A stretch of 64,000 nt of DNA from positions 297,790 through 361,789 of the forward strand of contig NZ_FMZM01000004.1 in NCBI RefSeq assembly GCF_900101465.1, read 5' to 3'. Position 1 is the stretch's first letter; each line of letters begins with the position of its first letter. The notes below the pieces were generated by a model. That model was given only the letters and a program-made list of their open reading frames with translations. It had not been told where the DNA came from and made no database searches. A program made the translations under genes and the position numbers. Below are positions 39,496 to 45,180 of the stretch, piece after piece. This DNA comes from Nocardioides lianchengensis. Lineage in GTDB: Bacteria; Actinomycetota; Actinomycetes; Propionibacteriales; Nocardioidaceae.

Positions 39496-40866
39496 CTACC
39501 AATAGATCGCGACGAACTCGACCTCAAGCAGTTTCCGGTCGTGTGTGGTCTCCTCGGGCTCTTCGATTGCTGTCTGAAGTGCGGGGACCGTAGCCGAAAG
39601 CTGGGCCAGCGCTTGGTGTGGTTCACGTAGAGCGGCGACGAGATTGCGGTCTATGGGCGTCAGGAGGAGTGGTGGGCTGGCTTCGACTGCGGCGACGATG
39701 TGCTCGAAGGCTGAACGGGTGGCGCTGATGTCTCCGAGGCTGTCGAGGTCGTTGATGGCTTGAGCGGCTTCGTGCGCGGTGCTGGTGAGTTTGTCCTCGT
39801 CGAGGATTCGGCCCGTTTGTTGGGCGAGTGCGTGTCCGAAGGGGATAAGACCCTCGGTTGCGAAGATTTCAACGAACGGAACTGCTAGCACTTCGACGCC
39901 TGCTTTGTGGAGGTTCTTGAAGCCGTTGGGGAGTTCGCGGAAGTCTTTGCCGATTTTGGGGTCGAGGGTGTCGAAGACGTCGGCGAGCTTGATGGGGGTC
40001 CAGGTGGTGGCGAGGCCGGGTTTGGCTAGACGTGTGTAGACCGTGTATTCGGCGTTGTCGAAGAGTACGCGGCGGGCATCTTTCCAGTAGAGCGGTATTT
40101 CGGTGACACCGACAATGGCGATGGTTTCGGCCACTGCCGCGAGGGAGCTGCCGGGGGTGAGCATGGTGGTGTCGACGAGCCAGGATTCGTCGTCGAGGTC
40201 GATGCGTCGGTGGCTGATGACCTTGGCGTTAAGGGGTACGAGGTCGACGAGCATCTGTGGGAGTAGCTCGAGCATGGGCGCGATGTCGGCGAACTGTTGT
40301 TCGTCGATGCCGAACATGGCTGATCTGCCCTTGATGAGGTCGAGCATGGATGAGGCTGCGGCAGCGAACTGGTAGGTGGGATCTGCGCTGAGCTGGACGC
40401 GGAGTTCGATGACGTCGCCGCGTTTGAGGTCGGTCACTCGGACGGCTCGTCGCTGCTTGGCGAGCTTAGTTAGCGCCTTGGTGAGTTCAGCTTCTGTAGT
40501 CGCGGGCGGAGGTTTGTTCTCGGGCTGCCTGTCTTCGACGGAGAGCTTCAGATCGGTGTCGGTGATTCGGAGGCTGCGGAACGTCCCTTGTACGACGGCG
40601 CGACGTACCACCTCTTGTGTGGTGGTCCGCGAGGAGGTCATGCGGGAGGTGAGGTTGGCGCCGGGCGTGAGCGGGGTCGCGGGGACAGTGAGGGAGCTGC
40701 CAACCTGGGCGCCGGACGTCTCGCTGTGGGTGTTCTTGAACGATTCGGCGATGGAGCCGTGGCGTGCGGCGACGAGGCTGGTAACGCTGACCTCGTCGAG
40801 GTAGACGAACTCGCGACGTCGTTGTTCCCAGGCGCGGTTGCGGGGCTTCCAGAACTTGAGGTTCAC
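39496..40866 (-). CDS. DUF6414-like protein, partner of the AAA+ ATPase
   Basis: A 456-residue soluble protein. The N-terminal stretch REFVYLDEVSVTSLVAARHG resembles, from memory, DUF6414-type proteins, followed by a Ser/Thr-rich segment (SGAQVGSSLTVPATPLTPGA). The middle (residues 140-290) contains a beta-rich RVTDLKRGDVIELRVQLS segment, and the C-terminus is mostly helical. No catalytic motif is recognised. The GTG at 40866 overlaps the AAA+ stop by 4 nt (GTGA), so the two proteins are likely made in fixed ratio and may form a complex. Codon usage is more A/T-tolerant than in neighbours, suggesting transfer. Confidence 0.75.
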   Translation of the reverse strand: MNLKFWKPRNRAWEQRRREFVYLDEVSVTSLVAARHGSIAESFKNTHSETSGAQVGSSLTVPATPLTPGANLTSRMTSSRTTTQEVVRRAVVQGTFRSLRITDTDLKLSVEDRQPENKPPPATTEAELTKALTKLAKQRRAVRVTDLKRGDVIELRVQLSADPTYQFAAAASSMLDLIKGRSAMFGIDEQQFADIAPMLELLPQMLVDLVPLNAKVISHRRIDLDDESWLVDTTMLTPGSSLAAVAETIAIVGVTEIPLYWKDARRVLFDNAEYTVYTRLAKPGLATTWTPIKLADVFDTLDPKIGKDFRELPNGFKNLHKAGVEVLAVPFVEIFATEGLIPFGHALAQQTGRILDEDKLTSTAHEAAQAINDLDSLGDISATRSAFEHIVAAVEASPPLLLTPIDRNLVAALREPHQALAQLSATVPALQTAIEEPEETTHDRKLLEVEFVAIYW

Positions 40867-42212
40867 GCCTGACCTTCCTGTCTGCGAGTGGTGGCTCGAT
40901 TTCGTTTCGCGCGGGCGTGGCCTTCGCGAATGTCTGTGAAGTTGAGGTTGTCGCGGCCATCCAGTGCTGCGAGGACGCCGGCATCGGTCCAGATCATTGC
41001 CATCTCGGCTGCTGTCCAGCCGTCAGTTTCCTCGACGAGCGTTTCGAGGTCGGCGTTGTCGGCTCCTCGAACGTGACGGGAGGAGGCACGAAGGATGGAG
41101 AGACGGTCGTCGGCGTCTGGGTGTCCGTTGAACTCGACCTTGTAACTCAGGCGGCCGGGTCGTAGGAGTGCTGTGTCGAGGGAGCCGGGGAGGTTCGTTG
41201 CAGCGACCACGAGGACTCCTTTCGCGGGGTCGAATCCGTCGAGGATGGTGAGGAACTGGCCGACGAATCGGGTGATGTATTCGGGTGCATCGGCGCCTCG
41301 TCTGGACACGATGCTGTCGAGTTCGTCAAAGAACAGCATTGCGGGGGCGTTGGCTGCGGCGTGGTCGAACAGATCGCGGAGGCGTTGCTCGCTTTCGCCG
41401 ACCCACTTGTTGATGATTTCGGGGCCGTCGATGAGGTAGAACCTGGCGTTCGCCTCACGACTGAGAGCACGAGCCAGATGGGTCTTGCCGGTTCCAGACG
41501 GACCGCTGAATAGGATCCCTTTGACCGGATTGACCCCGATGCGATCCAGCAACTGTTCGGGGTCCAGAGCGACACGCACCAAGTCGAGTGCGTGGCGGAC
41601 CAGATCGGGTGAGCCTCCGAAGTCGGAGAGCTTCACGTCGATGTCAGCAGGTTCGACCAGCATGACGGACGGGTCGAGACCGGATCCGTCGCGGTGGATG
41701 CCATGCCGGTCGATGGGTTTGGTCGTCAGGACAGCCCCGGGCTCACCTTCGGAGAACGAGACGGACTGTCCGGCCTCGAACGGTGCTGCGGTGCGTTGCG
41801 GGACCTCCTTCAGCCGGCCGTTGATCTCGAGGATTGCACTCTTGCCGTCATCGCTGATTTCGACGACGGTCGCGACATCGTTGGACTGTTTCGGCCAGGC
41901 TTCCGCAGGCAGTTGCTCGATGCTTTCGTAGGTGAGGTCTTCGGGGAGGTAGTAGATCTCGCCCTTATCCGCACCTGCGAGGTCAGGATGCCAAAGGTGC
42001 CCTTCGCCGTCAGGCAATCGGTCGAAATAGACCCGATTCTTGTCGAGGTCGACAAGACGTACCCGAATGATCTGGCCGGCGGAGGGTTCGGCCGGAGCGT
42101 AGTCAGTACCATCAGCGTTCAAGGCTGAGCCTTCTTCAACTTGGAGAACCGGGGTCAGGTCGGGCAAAGGTGCGTCGCCGTCGGGGACGAGGGTAGTGAG
42201 CGCCCCCGACAA
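40863..42212 (-). CDS. ARC/Cdc48-like AAA+ ATPase with N-terminal OB-like region
   Basis: A 449-residue protein from the TTG at 42212. Residues 43-165 look like beta-rich OB-type domains (ATVVEISDDGKSAILEINGR) as in proteasomal ATPases. The AAA module has Walker A GPSGTGKT (237-244), pore loop KWVG (269-272), Walker B MLFFDELD (292-299), sensor 1 N340 and Arg fingers at R351/R354 in LLRPGR. A Trp pore loop is typical of substrate-threading unfoldases. No protease gene is adjacent. An in-frame TAG lies directly before the TTG and no ATG or GTG occurs until about residue 184, so the start is non-standard; a TTG at residue 31 with GAAGG upstream is an alternative. It heads the operon with the DUF6414-like gene. 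Confidence 0.85.
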   Translation of the reverse strand: MSGALTTLVPDGDAPLPDLTPVLQVEEGSALNADGTDYAPAEPSAGQIIRVRLVDLDKNRVYFDRLPDGEGHLWHPDLAGADKGEIYYLPEDLTYESIEQLPAEAWPKQSNDVATVVEISDDGKSAILEINGRLKEVPQRTAAPFEAGQSVSFSEGEPGAVLTTKPIDRHGIHRDGSGLDPSVMLVEPADIDVKLSDFGGSPDLVRHALDLVRVALDPEQLLDRIGVNPVKGILFSGPSGTGKTHLARALSREANARFYLIDGPEIINKWVGESEQRLRDLFDHAAANAPAMLFFDELDSIVSRRGADAPEYITRFVGQFLTILDGFDPAKGVLVVAATNLPGSLDTALLRPGRLSYKVEFNGHPDADDRLSILRASSRHVRGADNADLETLVEETDGWTAAEMAMIWTDAGVLAALDGRDNLNFTDIREGHARAKRNRATTRRQEGQA

Positions 42213-42343
42213 CTACCGGTTCAACCGACGTCGTCGTGGGCCCGTTCATGCATCGGCGCCGCCACCAGACACAGTGGTGACTACGAAGTCGTCAACCGCA
42301 CGGGCGCTCTCTTCCGCACTTGACGCACGTCATTCCGCCGCGT

Positions 42344-42544
42344 TCAGCGCCCCTTTGGACGCGGGCTCCAGGGCGGGGCCTGGATTCCTCGTCGCGAGGT
42401 TAGATGCCAACCGCCGCACGGAGAGCACAGATAGACGCCCTTCGGCACTGGCCGCCCTCGACGTGCCTGCTTGCTAGCGATGGCTCGGAGGGCGACGAGG
42501 GACTCGGCGTGATTTAGGTAGGTGACCTTCATGCAGTTGGGCAT
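42344..42544 (-). CDS. Small Cys-pair protein of the island
   Basis: A 66-residue basic protein. The core MKVTYLNHAESLVALRAIAS is followed by YLCSPCGGWHLTS, a CxxC-GWH motif that I recognise from many small actinobacterial proteins associated with mobile elements; zinc binding is likely, but only one Cys pair is present. The ATG at 42544 has AAGGA 8 nt upstream; an internal ATG four codons in is possible. It lies 131 bp upstream of the AAA+ gene on the same strand and may belong to the same unit. Confidence 0.62.
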   Translation of the reverse strand: MPNCMKVTYLNHAESLVALRAIASKQARRGRPVPKGVYLCSPCGGWHLTSRRGIQAPPWSPRPKGR

Positions 42545-42784: not shown

Positions 42785-43255
42785 TCAGTCTCGAGCCGCC
42801 TGGTGAGCCCACTCGAGGGCGCTCTCGCGGGATCGCGCGCGACCGCGAAGCGGGATGGTCGCCCGTGGGCGGCCCGTCGTACCGCGCTCGGCGGCCCGCC
42901 GGGCCCCGGCGACGACGTGCACGCGCTGCGTGAACACCACGAAGCAAGCCTCCTCCGGGAGGCCCCCCGCCGGCGTCACGTCCACCGCTAGCCACAACCC
43001 GTCCGGCTCGAAGCCGACGACGGCCTTCCCGGTACCGGCGCGCCCCTTGCTCACTGCGGACGAGGTGACATGGAGGTCGAACTCGACCGCCCGGGCGTGC
43101 GCACCGCGGGTCCTTCGCAGCAACTGCATCGCCTCGACGAACGCCCGCGCCTCCGACGAGATGAGGCCGGCCGGGATCCACGGCGCCCGTGGGCCGGTGG
43201 CGTCTATCCCGGGTCGAACCTTGTCCCCGTTGACCCAGACATCTCCCCAGCTCAT
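42785..43255 (-). CDS. Hypothetical protein (156 aa)
   Basis: A 156-residue soluble protein with no recognised family. It contains a predicted helix (SSEARAFVEAMQLLRRTRG), beta strands (VEFDLHVTSS, GLWLAVDVTP, CFVVFTQRVHVVAG) and a basic C-terminal tail. The ATG at 43255 has GAGG 8 nt upstream. At the 3' end another frame (42812 down to 42696, GTG start) could encode a 38-residue peptide ending IRQTPGALKVWWDRLAAT, which may be a second small gene or the original C-terminus after a frameshift. Confidence 0.5.
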   Translation of the reverse strand: MSWGDVWVNGDKVRPGIDATGPRAPWIPAGLISSEARAFVEAMQLLRRTRGAHARAVEFDLHVTSSAVSKGRAGTGKAVVGFEPDGLWLAVDVTPAGGLPEEACFVVFTQRVHVVAGARRAAERGTTGRPRATIPLRGRARSRESALEWAHQAARD

Positions 43256-43503
43256 TGACGCATCCTCGCACCGGTCTCCGGCACGGTGTCCGGAGGAGGT
43301 GACGGTCGGTCGACTGCCGCGGAGGAGGAATGTCGCAGGAGACGATGATGAGCATCGGCGGTTGCCCCGTGCTCGTACTTCTGGACCACCACGTCACGCG
43401 CGGGGCAACACAGGCGTACAGCTCGACACTCCCCTCAGACGCTGAACGAGGAGACGGCGAGTGTCACGATGATCCTGCCCTTCGACGATTGACCAGGTGC
43501 ACG

Positions 43504-44193
43504 ATGTTCTTCCGCCGCAGGCGACACGATCCGCCACCACGCGTGGCGACGTACCGTCCGTCGCGCGCCAGCCAGCAGGAGGAGAACACGCGGCTCCGGT
43601 ACATCGCGGTCCTGCCGTCGCTGCTGCTGATCGGCGGTGCCACCGCCGGGGTGCTGTCCGCCGACGACCGGCGCTACGCACTGCTGGTGTACGGCGGGCT
43701 GTTCGCAGTGGCCGGGCTCATCGCCGCACCGATCGTCGCGGTGCTGTCGGTCCGCAATCGGATGCTGTTCACCAACAGCTCCCTCACCGTGACACCCGAG
43801 ACCGTGACGCACGTCGACCGTCGGGGCAGGTCGACCACGTTCGACCGCAGCGACCCCACCCTGACCGCGCTGCTGTCGTGGGTCGAGCCGACCGCGCCTC
43901 CGTACGGAGGAGTGTTCCCGCCGAAGACGCTGCAGCTGTTCATCGCGGACAGCAGCCAGCAGGTCCGCGTCGCCGGAAGCGACTGGGACACGGACGACCT
44001 CAGGGCGGTGACGGAGGCCGCCAACGGTCACGTCGCCGACCACGTCAGCACGGCGCGGCAGGTGAACGAGGCGATACCGGGTGCGATGAGCTTCCGTGAG
44101 CGCCGTCCCTTGACGTTCGCGCTGGCGGTCGGCTTCGGCTCGGTTGCTGCCCTTCTCCTGGTGATCGTCCTGATCGCGCTCGTGCAGGGCTGA
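43504..44193 (+). CDS. Membrane protein with PH-like middle region, hypothetical
   Basis: A 229-residue protein. Basic N-terminus (FFRRRRHDPPPR), two membrane helices (YIAVLPSLLLIGGATAGVL; LLVYGGLFAVAGLIAAPIVA), then about 110 beta-rich residues (MLFTNSSLTVTPETVTHVDRRG...) that resemble bacterial PH-like domains, and a C-terminal helix (FALAVGFGSVAALLLVIVLI). The function is unknown. The ATG at 43504 is chosen over an in-frame ATG at 43330, because the extra 58 residues look non-coding although that ATG has GGAGGAGG before it. Confidence 0.68.
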   Translation: MFFRRRRHDPPPRVATYRPSRASQQEENTRLRYIAVLPSLLLIGGATAGVLSADDRRYALLVYGGLFAVAGLIAAPIVAVLSVRNRMLFTNSSLTVTPETVTHVDRRGRSTTFDRSDPTLTALLSWVEPTAPPYGGVFPPKTLQLFIADSSQQVRVAGSDWDTDDLRAVTEAANGHVADHVSTARQVNEAIPGAMSFRERRPLTFALAVGFGSVAALLLVIVLIALVQG

Positions 44194-44229: not shown

Positions 44230-45180
44230 CTACACCGACAGCGTGCTGACGGTCTTGGTGATCTGCCCCGCCCTGTTCTCGAGGAACACCATCTGGCCGA
44301 ACTCGACGTACGACCAGCCCTCGGCGTCCTCCGTCAGGGCCTCGGAGGCGAAGATGGCGGCCGTCGCCTCGCCCACCTCGCACGCCTCGAAGTCGAAGGA
44401 CGTGTCGTCGCTCGGAACGTGTCGCCCTGTCAGCAGGTACATCGGCTCCAGGACCATCGAGAGGGCGAAGTCGTCCGTGCCCGGAGCGGCCTCTCGCAGC
44501 TTCTTCCAGTCGCCCGCCGGGTTGGTCTCGCCCTGGTGGCCGAGACCGACGTTGACCCCGATGATCCGGTTCGGCGAGACCAGGGCCATCTTCAGCTTGG
44601 TCAGGCCGGGGAGGTCGAGGTCCTTCATCGCCTGGGCGATGTGGCGAACCATCTTCTCGAACGCGCGTCGGACGTCCTCGTCGCTGTTGCCGTCGAGCAG
44701 GGAGAGCAGGAGCACGTAGAGGAACTCCGTGTCCGTCGTGCCCCGCATCTGCTTCAGGTACCTGTCCTCGCAGTGCTGCAGCAGCTCCCGCTGCAGGAGC
44801 ATCCAGTTCGGCAGCTCGCCGTTCTGGGCGACGATCCAGGGGGTCTCCTCGAAGGAGAAGGGGTGGCAGTTCTCGTCGACCAGGACGGTCGACGAGTTGT
44901 AGAGGGCCGCGCGCACGTGGCCGAGCATCGTGCTCGCCCGCAGGCTCGGGATGATGCGCTCGGCGTTGTCGTCGTAGAAGGCGGCCATGGGCCGTCGGTA
45001 GATGAACGGGTCCTCCGGCTTCAGCAGGTGCTCGCTCCAGAGCCCGAAGCCCCAGCCGGCCAGCTGCAGATCCGGGTAGTGCTCAGGGTCGAGGGCCTGG
45101 TTGACCAGGCTGTTCGACGGCGTCAGCAGCAGTTCCTCGAGCGGGATCTCGGGTCCGATGTAGGCGAGCACTCGGCACAT
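44230..45180 (-). CDS. Class II glutamine amidotransferase (GATase_4, YafJ/EgtC-like)
   Basis: A 316-residue Ntn-type amidotransferase. The nucleophile Cys2 follows the initiator Met (MCRVLAYIGPEIPLEELL), as the family requires. Other active-site segments are GHVRAALY, PFSFEETPWIVAQNGEL (Asn-Gly) and GTTDTEFLYVLLLS (Thr-Asp). Stand-alone members include EgtC of ergothioneine synthesis, but the other egt genes are absent here, so the substrate is unknown. The start is fixed by the need for Cys at position 2. Confidence 0.92.
   Translation of the reverse strand: MCRVLAYIGPEIPLEELLLTPSNSLVNQALDPEHYPDLQLAGWGFGLWSEHLLKPEDPFIYRRPMAAFYDDNAERIIPSLRASTMLGHVRAALYNSSTVLVDENCHPFSFEETPWIVAQNGELPNWMLLQRELLQHCEDRYLKQMRGTTDTEFLYVLLLSLLDGNSDEDVRRAFEKMVRHIAQAMKDLDLPGLTKLKMALVSPNRIIGVNVGLGHQGETNPAGDWKKLREAAPGTDDFALSMVLEPMYLLTGRHVPSDDTSFDFEACEVGEATAAIFASEALTEDAEGWSYVEFGQMVFLENRAGQITKTVSTLSV

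Follow-up and report, generated by a model that had tools for sequence, protein, structure and literature searches.

The question raised by this locus is what a predicted unfoldase and a protein of the family DUF6414, encoded side by side in an unusually A/T-rich island, may do together. The window, that is, the whole stretch of 64,000 nucleotides of Nocardioides lianchengensis DNA that was analyzed, has a GC content of 72.4%, whereas both genes of the pair have 62%; per kilobase, the values are 58.5-62.7% over 39-42 kb and about 70-77% over most of the flanking DNA. These values bear out the compositional island described in an earlier note on this DNA. The pair occupies positions 39496-42212 of the minus strand; a check of the open reading frames found both of them where the earlier note had placed them, together with the overlap of 4 nt (Table 1), and an overlap of exactly this length is also present in 39 of 63 homologous pairs.

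Table 1. Positions in the window of the AAA+/DUF6414 gene pair, its sequence motifs, and the adjoining small gene.
Feature	Position	Strand	Basis or remark
DUF6414 protein (PF19952), long form, 456 aa	39496-40866	-	GTG start
DUF6414 C-terminal Tyr-Trp, exact end	39499-39504	-	61/61 pair-type proteins
DUF6414 low-confidence loop, residues 48-83	40618-40725	-	beta-type amphipathic alternation; possible hairpin
4-nt overlap, AAA+ stop / DUF6414 start	40863-40866	-	sequence; suggests translational coupling
AAA+ ATPase, 449 aa	40863-42212	-	TTG start
AAA+ arginine fingers RPGR (R351, R354)	41151-41162	-	motif conservation
AAA+ Walker B MLFFDELD	41316-41339	-	motif conservation
AAA+ pore loop 1 KWVG, residues 269-272	41397-41408	-	motif conservation
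AAA+ Walker A GPSGTGKT, residues 237-244	41481-41504	-	motif conservation
AAA+ N-terminal double beta-barrel (OB-like) domain, residues 46-163	41724-42077	-	predicted, AlphaFold2 model
Small CxxC protein	42344-42544		upstream of the pair; weak phage-family match

The small CxxC protein had been regarded as a possible third component. The gene does exist, and its product has weak similarity to phage families (phrog_3424, E 2e-7). Inspection of the other loci yielded no convincing homologue next to the pair, and on this ground its membership in a three-gene system was rejected. No common third gene emerged across the pair loci, the only recurrent neighbor being a type I restriction-modification (R-M) system, in five of them.

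The first protein of the pair is assigned by its profile scores (PF00004, 122 bits; CDC48, 192 bits; PF07724, 14 bits) to the classic AAA clade (Cdc48/PAN/FtsH-like) with a single ring. The best Foldseek matches of its AlphaFold2 model (pLDDT 84.8) are chains of the 26S proteasome Rpt subunits, p97, PAN, and FtsH. In this model, the N-terminal region forms two predicted small barrels of five strands each, ten strands in all, for which the label OB-AAA used previously is a reasonable one. Residues 1-37 are modeled with low confidence, and the true start may lie downstream of the annotated TTG. All the motor motifs reported as intact in the earlier note (Walker A and B, arginine fingers, and aromatic pore loop) are present and conserved in 52 homologues: G237, G240, G242, K243, and T244 of Walker A are invariant, as are D296 and E297 of Walker B (52/52), and pore loop 1 carries an aromatic residue (W/Y/F) in every homologue (52/52). 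The protein has the sequence features of an AAA+ unfoldase, which is its predicted activity.

The second protein matches PF19952 over its full length at 142.6 bits against a cut-off of 25, so that the DUF6414-like identity proposed for it holds. Its predicted model (pLDDT 84.1) gave no PDB or viral-model match at E<=0.001 in a structure search, the DUF6414 profile matched no PDB sequence, no recognizable catalytic residues were found in the protein, and a search of phage and viral contigs returned no pair-type DUF6414. A literature search by the name “DUF6414” also returned nothing, and the link to Dodola, discussed below, came through the PADLOC matches of short relatives.

Two features of this protein deserve attention. 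The dipeptide Tyr-Trp is the exact C-terminus of all 61 pair-type proteins, from both bacteria and archaea; it cannot be an effect of the search pattern, which was a motif of the N-terminus. The loop at residues 48-83, partly with pLDDT<50, shows a beta-type amphipathic alternation with a moment of z=7.8 at 170 degrees and z=-3.8 at 100 degrees relative to shuffled sequences, the z of about 8 at 170-180 degrees being inflated by the relatedness of the sequences. The equivalent loop of actinobacterial DolA has the aromatic tip FSWLPFLGG, and one haloarchaeal long-form DUF6414 has RFRFFIWIKK at the loop. Together, the Tyr-Trp end and the loop suggest where DUF6414 would contact the unfoldase. 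Contact of the loop with a membrane is possible as a low-confidence guess, and it is doubtful that DUF6414 acts at the membrane.

To follow the linkage of the two genes, bacterial and archaeal genomes were searched with DUF6414 alone, the AAA+ gene not being used, and 64 loci were obtained. An AAA+ gene of the same kind as in the window, on the same strand, lies immediately upstream of DUF6414 in 63 of them; in the 64th, the contig begins within the AAA+ gene, the end of which is present. Counting this partial locus, the AAA+ gene directly precedes DUF6414 in 64/64 loci from several bacterial phyla and haloarchaea, and the linkage had already been seen in all eight of the plasmid loci that were opened first. 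In the reverse test, plasmid AAA matches were ranked by combined coverage and identity, and their neighbors were then inspected: the top six (H22-H27) were partners of DUF6414. Among four further matches opened, one from Halococcus adjoins DUF6414, two haloarchaeal ones (H34 and H37) are longer ATPases with no DUF6414 neighbor, and one from Streptomyces anthocyanicus (H28) is an unrelated TPR-AAA. The TPR-AAA pair of the latter species was considered as a partner swap and rejected, the N-terminal part of its AAA protein being different and the similarity being confined to the AAA domain.

The distance matrices of the two proteins are highly correlated (Mantel r 0.90, permutation maximum 0.20), with host relatedness contributing to this value. 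In two loci (L055 and L056), the AAA frame appears broken, which might reflect sequencing error, and DUF6414 is intact; the retention of DUF6414 there disfavors the AAA+ protein as a strict antitoxin. A decayed copy, with AAA+ and DUF6414 fragments side by side, was also observed (L025, positions 1027-2320).

DUF6414 also occurs in another setting. Short forms of about 260 aa, in Firmicutes plasmids and some Actinobacteria, are followed by a Clp-type AAA+ gene, overlapping or abutting, and PADLOC names the two DolA and DolB of Dodola. Dodola has been reported as a two-gene system active against the Bacillus subtilis phage SPP1 (PMC11514479) and against dairy phages, its mechanism being listed as unknown (PMC12322248). 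The PADLOC models identify DolA with the DUF6414 protein, whereas the structural paragraph of PMC11514479 assigns a Clp-like fold to DolA. DUF6414 is coupled to two different AAA+ motors, one Clp-type and the other Cdc48/PAN-type, and because the family pairs with both AAA+ clades, DUF6414 and an unfoldase are likely to make a working contact.

In 7 of the 17 DUF6414 genomes of the order, the roughly 8 kb around DUF6414 (a shorter stretch where one contig ends) contain neither AAA+ gene, which suggests that DUF6414 can work alone. One solo gene (L012, 1-2600) directly follows a ligD-like polymerase gene and is itself followed by an apparent second copy of the ligD-like 3' end, as if it had been inserted with a replacement end. 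Another (L016, 1-3897) lies between hsdS-like and hsdM-like genes, inside an apparent type I restriction operon. In an Enterococcus plasmid (L125, 3524-5852), DolA and DolB come immediately after a small gene with a TIR domain, and a three-gene Dodola is possible there.

The most likely reading of the pair, which we hold with moderate confidence, is a predicted mobile two-gene anti-phage module of Dodola-like design, in which DUF6414 is the likely effector and would be remodeled by an AAA+ ring. Its parts differ in strength. Protection against phage is quite probable; that the AAA+ protein acts on DUF6414, rather than each protein acting separately, is somewhat favored; and the chances that DUF6414 is the effector are about even. 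In the proposed sequence of events, the AAA+ protein would be translated just ahead of DUF6414, its dedicated partner, through the coupling of the two genes. A hexameric ring would bind DUF6414, probably by the invariant terminal Tyr-Trp or by the exposed loop, and would remodel it under ATP, either assembling DUF6414 or keeping it in an inactive state. A phage cue, for which the Dodola escape mutations listed under phage structural proteins offer a parallel, would shift the AAA+/DUF6414 balance, and DUF6414 would then act as the effector. A more specific version, which we regard as improbable, would make DUF6414 a membrane-active effector of new fold, with an amphipathic beta-hairpin sheathed by a ring that grips the C-terminal Tyr-Trp; phage structural proteins would compete for the ring and free DUF6414 to breach the membrane, and the motor would have been exchanged between Clp-type and Cdc48/PAN-type in evolution.

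The alternative that survives best, although it is distinctly less likely, reverses the roles: the AAA+ protein would be the effector and DUF6414 a sensor or adaptor that captures a structural protein of the phage and passes it to the ring, which would unfold it and block virion assembly. The intact and highly conserved ATPase and pore loop are consistent with such roles, as are the escape mutations of Dodola phages, given under structural proteins in a review table (PMC10286901), and a DUF6414 devoid of recognizable catalytic residues or known fold. However, the solo occurrence of DUF6414 fits an effector better than an adaptor, and the constant part of the systems, served by two AAA+ clades, is DUF6414 and not the motor.

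The neighbors of the pair were compared, using PADLOC families at E<=1e-10, with 107 control proteins encoded in 20 arbitrarily chosen regions of related genomes. The first set of neighbors gave 266 families from 127 proteins and the second set 97 families from 67 proteins, compared with 11 families for the control. The neighbors of the pair are strongly enriched in defense genes relative to this control, which came from one order only and is taxonomically narrower than the test set; many PADLOC models match one and the same protein, so that the enrichment is clear in direction and approximate in size. Gabija adjoins two loci (L028 and L052), an OLD/AriA-like gene a third (L050), and a type III methyltransferase a fourth (L078); a CBASS cyclase and a Cap15-type effector occur in the second neighbor set. 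The type I R-M cluster, upstream in the five loci mentioned above, is accompanied by a YgjP-like gene; the identification was by eye and with the Pfam families Methylase_S and YgjP. The tabulated neighborhoods place the pair in distant genomes near integrases or recombinases and defense genes, and with the linkage in all 64 loci they support the mobile system proposed in the earlier note, here as a two-gene system, probably defensive, of an unfoldase with a dedicated partner. That the pair is often plasmid-borne or close to integrases and recombinases, and that a phage-like small gene adjoins it in the window, would also suit plasmid or island maintenance or quality control, for example toxin-antitoxin-like stabilization, with no direct role against phage; with the defense enrichment and the anti-phage precedent of Dodola (PMC12322248) against it, we consider this explanation very unlikely.

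The distribution of the pair is patchy and crosses phyla. Both plasmids and chromosomes, from many phyla, carry it. For Actinomycetota, the tree requires six label changes or more; it has nearly identical copies in Nocardioidaceae and Cellulosimicrobium and nests a Chloroflexota row in Acidimicrobiia, and it shows horizontal, cross-phylum transfer. The DUF6414 protein was absent from 36/36 congeners in the first sample, and PF19952 is present in 17/397 genomes of the order. The two contrary outcomes named in the earlier note, rare co-occurrence of the genes or their presence as core genes at one locus, were looked for and did not appear, given the 64/64 linkage, the plasmid and chromosomal copies, and the 36 congeners lacking the protein. 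Because of the linkage, the co-divergence, the cross-phylum tree, and the patchy occurrence, the AAA+/DUF6414 pair is a mobile, co-inherited module. A housekeeping AAA+ gene with a linked gene in normal vertical descent, an idea to which a pair near the same egtC-like gene in Nocardioides deserti lends some color, is contradicted by this distribution, the low GC content, and the cross-phylum transfers, and is scarcely credible.

In N. deserti, the pair lies on the same side of that gene and also has low GC content, so that the pair may have occupied the window locus for longer than a very recent insertion would imply. The egtC-like site is possibly an insertion hotspot. The egtC-like amidotransferase gene is located 2 kb upstream of the pair in the window (44230-45180) and 4.2 kb upstream in N. 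deserti (L027, 3377-4381), and the genes in between differ. In the window, this lower-GC stretch encodes predicted proteins without family matches at 42785-43255 (minus strand) and 43330-44193 (plus strand). No clean empty site was found: the flanking CocE hydrolase gene and the egtC-like gene are not adjacent in relatives, and therefore no insertion boundary was drawn. No convincing att-like repeats were found around the island.

In design, the pair resembles several known systems. TRIP13-HORMA of type III CBASS likewise consists of an AAA+ remodeler and a dedicated, co-encoded client; the window client, however, is not a HORMA protein, the unit has no cyclase, and the window AAA+ matches TRIP13 weakly (39 bits). 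PAN, Mpa-ARC, and Cdc48 share with it the barrel N-domain, AAA ring, and aromatic pore loop and are its best sequence and fold matches, whereas the window AAA+ has no adjacent proteasome and has DUF6414 as a dedicated partner; its C-terminus, RRQEGQA, has no proteasome-docking motif, and its scores lie below every NCBIfam cut-off (PRK03992, 190 of 500 bits; Mpa model, 113 of 505). IetAS is also a two-gene defense system of an AAA ATPase (IetA) and a partner, and the window AAA+ scores 95 bits against IetA; this similarity does not extend beyond the AAA domain and falls short of that to Cdc48 and PAN (192 and 190 bits), and the partner in IetAS is the subtilisin-like IetS, whereas the window partner is DUF6414, with no S8 protease match.

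Dodola is the closest in composition, and the earlier view that the pair stands apart from all described systems cannot be kept in that form, since DUF6414 with AAA+ is the composition of Dodola, though with another AAA+ clade and gene order. Both consist of two overlapping or abutting genes for a DUF6414 (PF19952) protein and an AAA+ ATPase, occur on plasmids and near defense genes, and have no protease or nuclease partner. In Dodola, however, the motor is a Clp-type AAA+ (DolB: PDLC03838, 376-454 bits; best Pfam match PF07724, 51-64 bits), DolA comes first (L125-L129), and DolA has about 260 aa, whereas the window type has a classic AAA motor with a double-barrel N-domain, the AAA+ gene first, and a DUF6414 of about 450 aa. 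True DolA proteins score 241-256 bits with the PADLOC DolA model PDLC03837; the window DUF6414 matches no PADLOC family at E<=0.1, this model included, and the window AAA+ does not match the DolB model. When the profiles of the two DUF6414 groups were compared with each other, no more than 48 columns, at the N-terminus, could be aligned, with a probability of 6% and E 0.006.

The second, differently derived motor suggests that DUF6414 is the constant, defining part, in need of an unfoldase rather than of one particular unfoldase, and the two motors, reversed order, solo forms, C-terminal Tyr-Trp, and variable loop offer a comparative handle on its function. With its spread over several bacterial phyla and haloarchaea, the pair is also a further widespread system, one missed by the PADLOC models applied here. 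Taken together, because the DolA and DolB models fail, the gene order is reversed, the AAA+ clade is another one, and the DUF6414 groups are distant, we call the pair Dodola-like rather than Dodola, a putative distant cousin whose kinship to DolA rests on both proteins passing PF19952.
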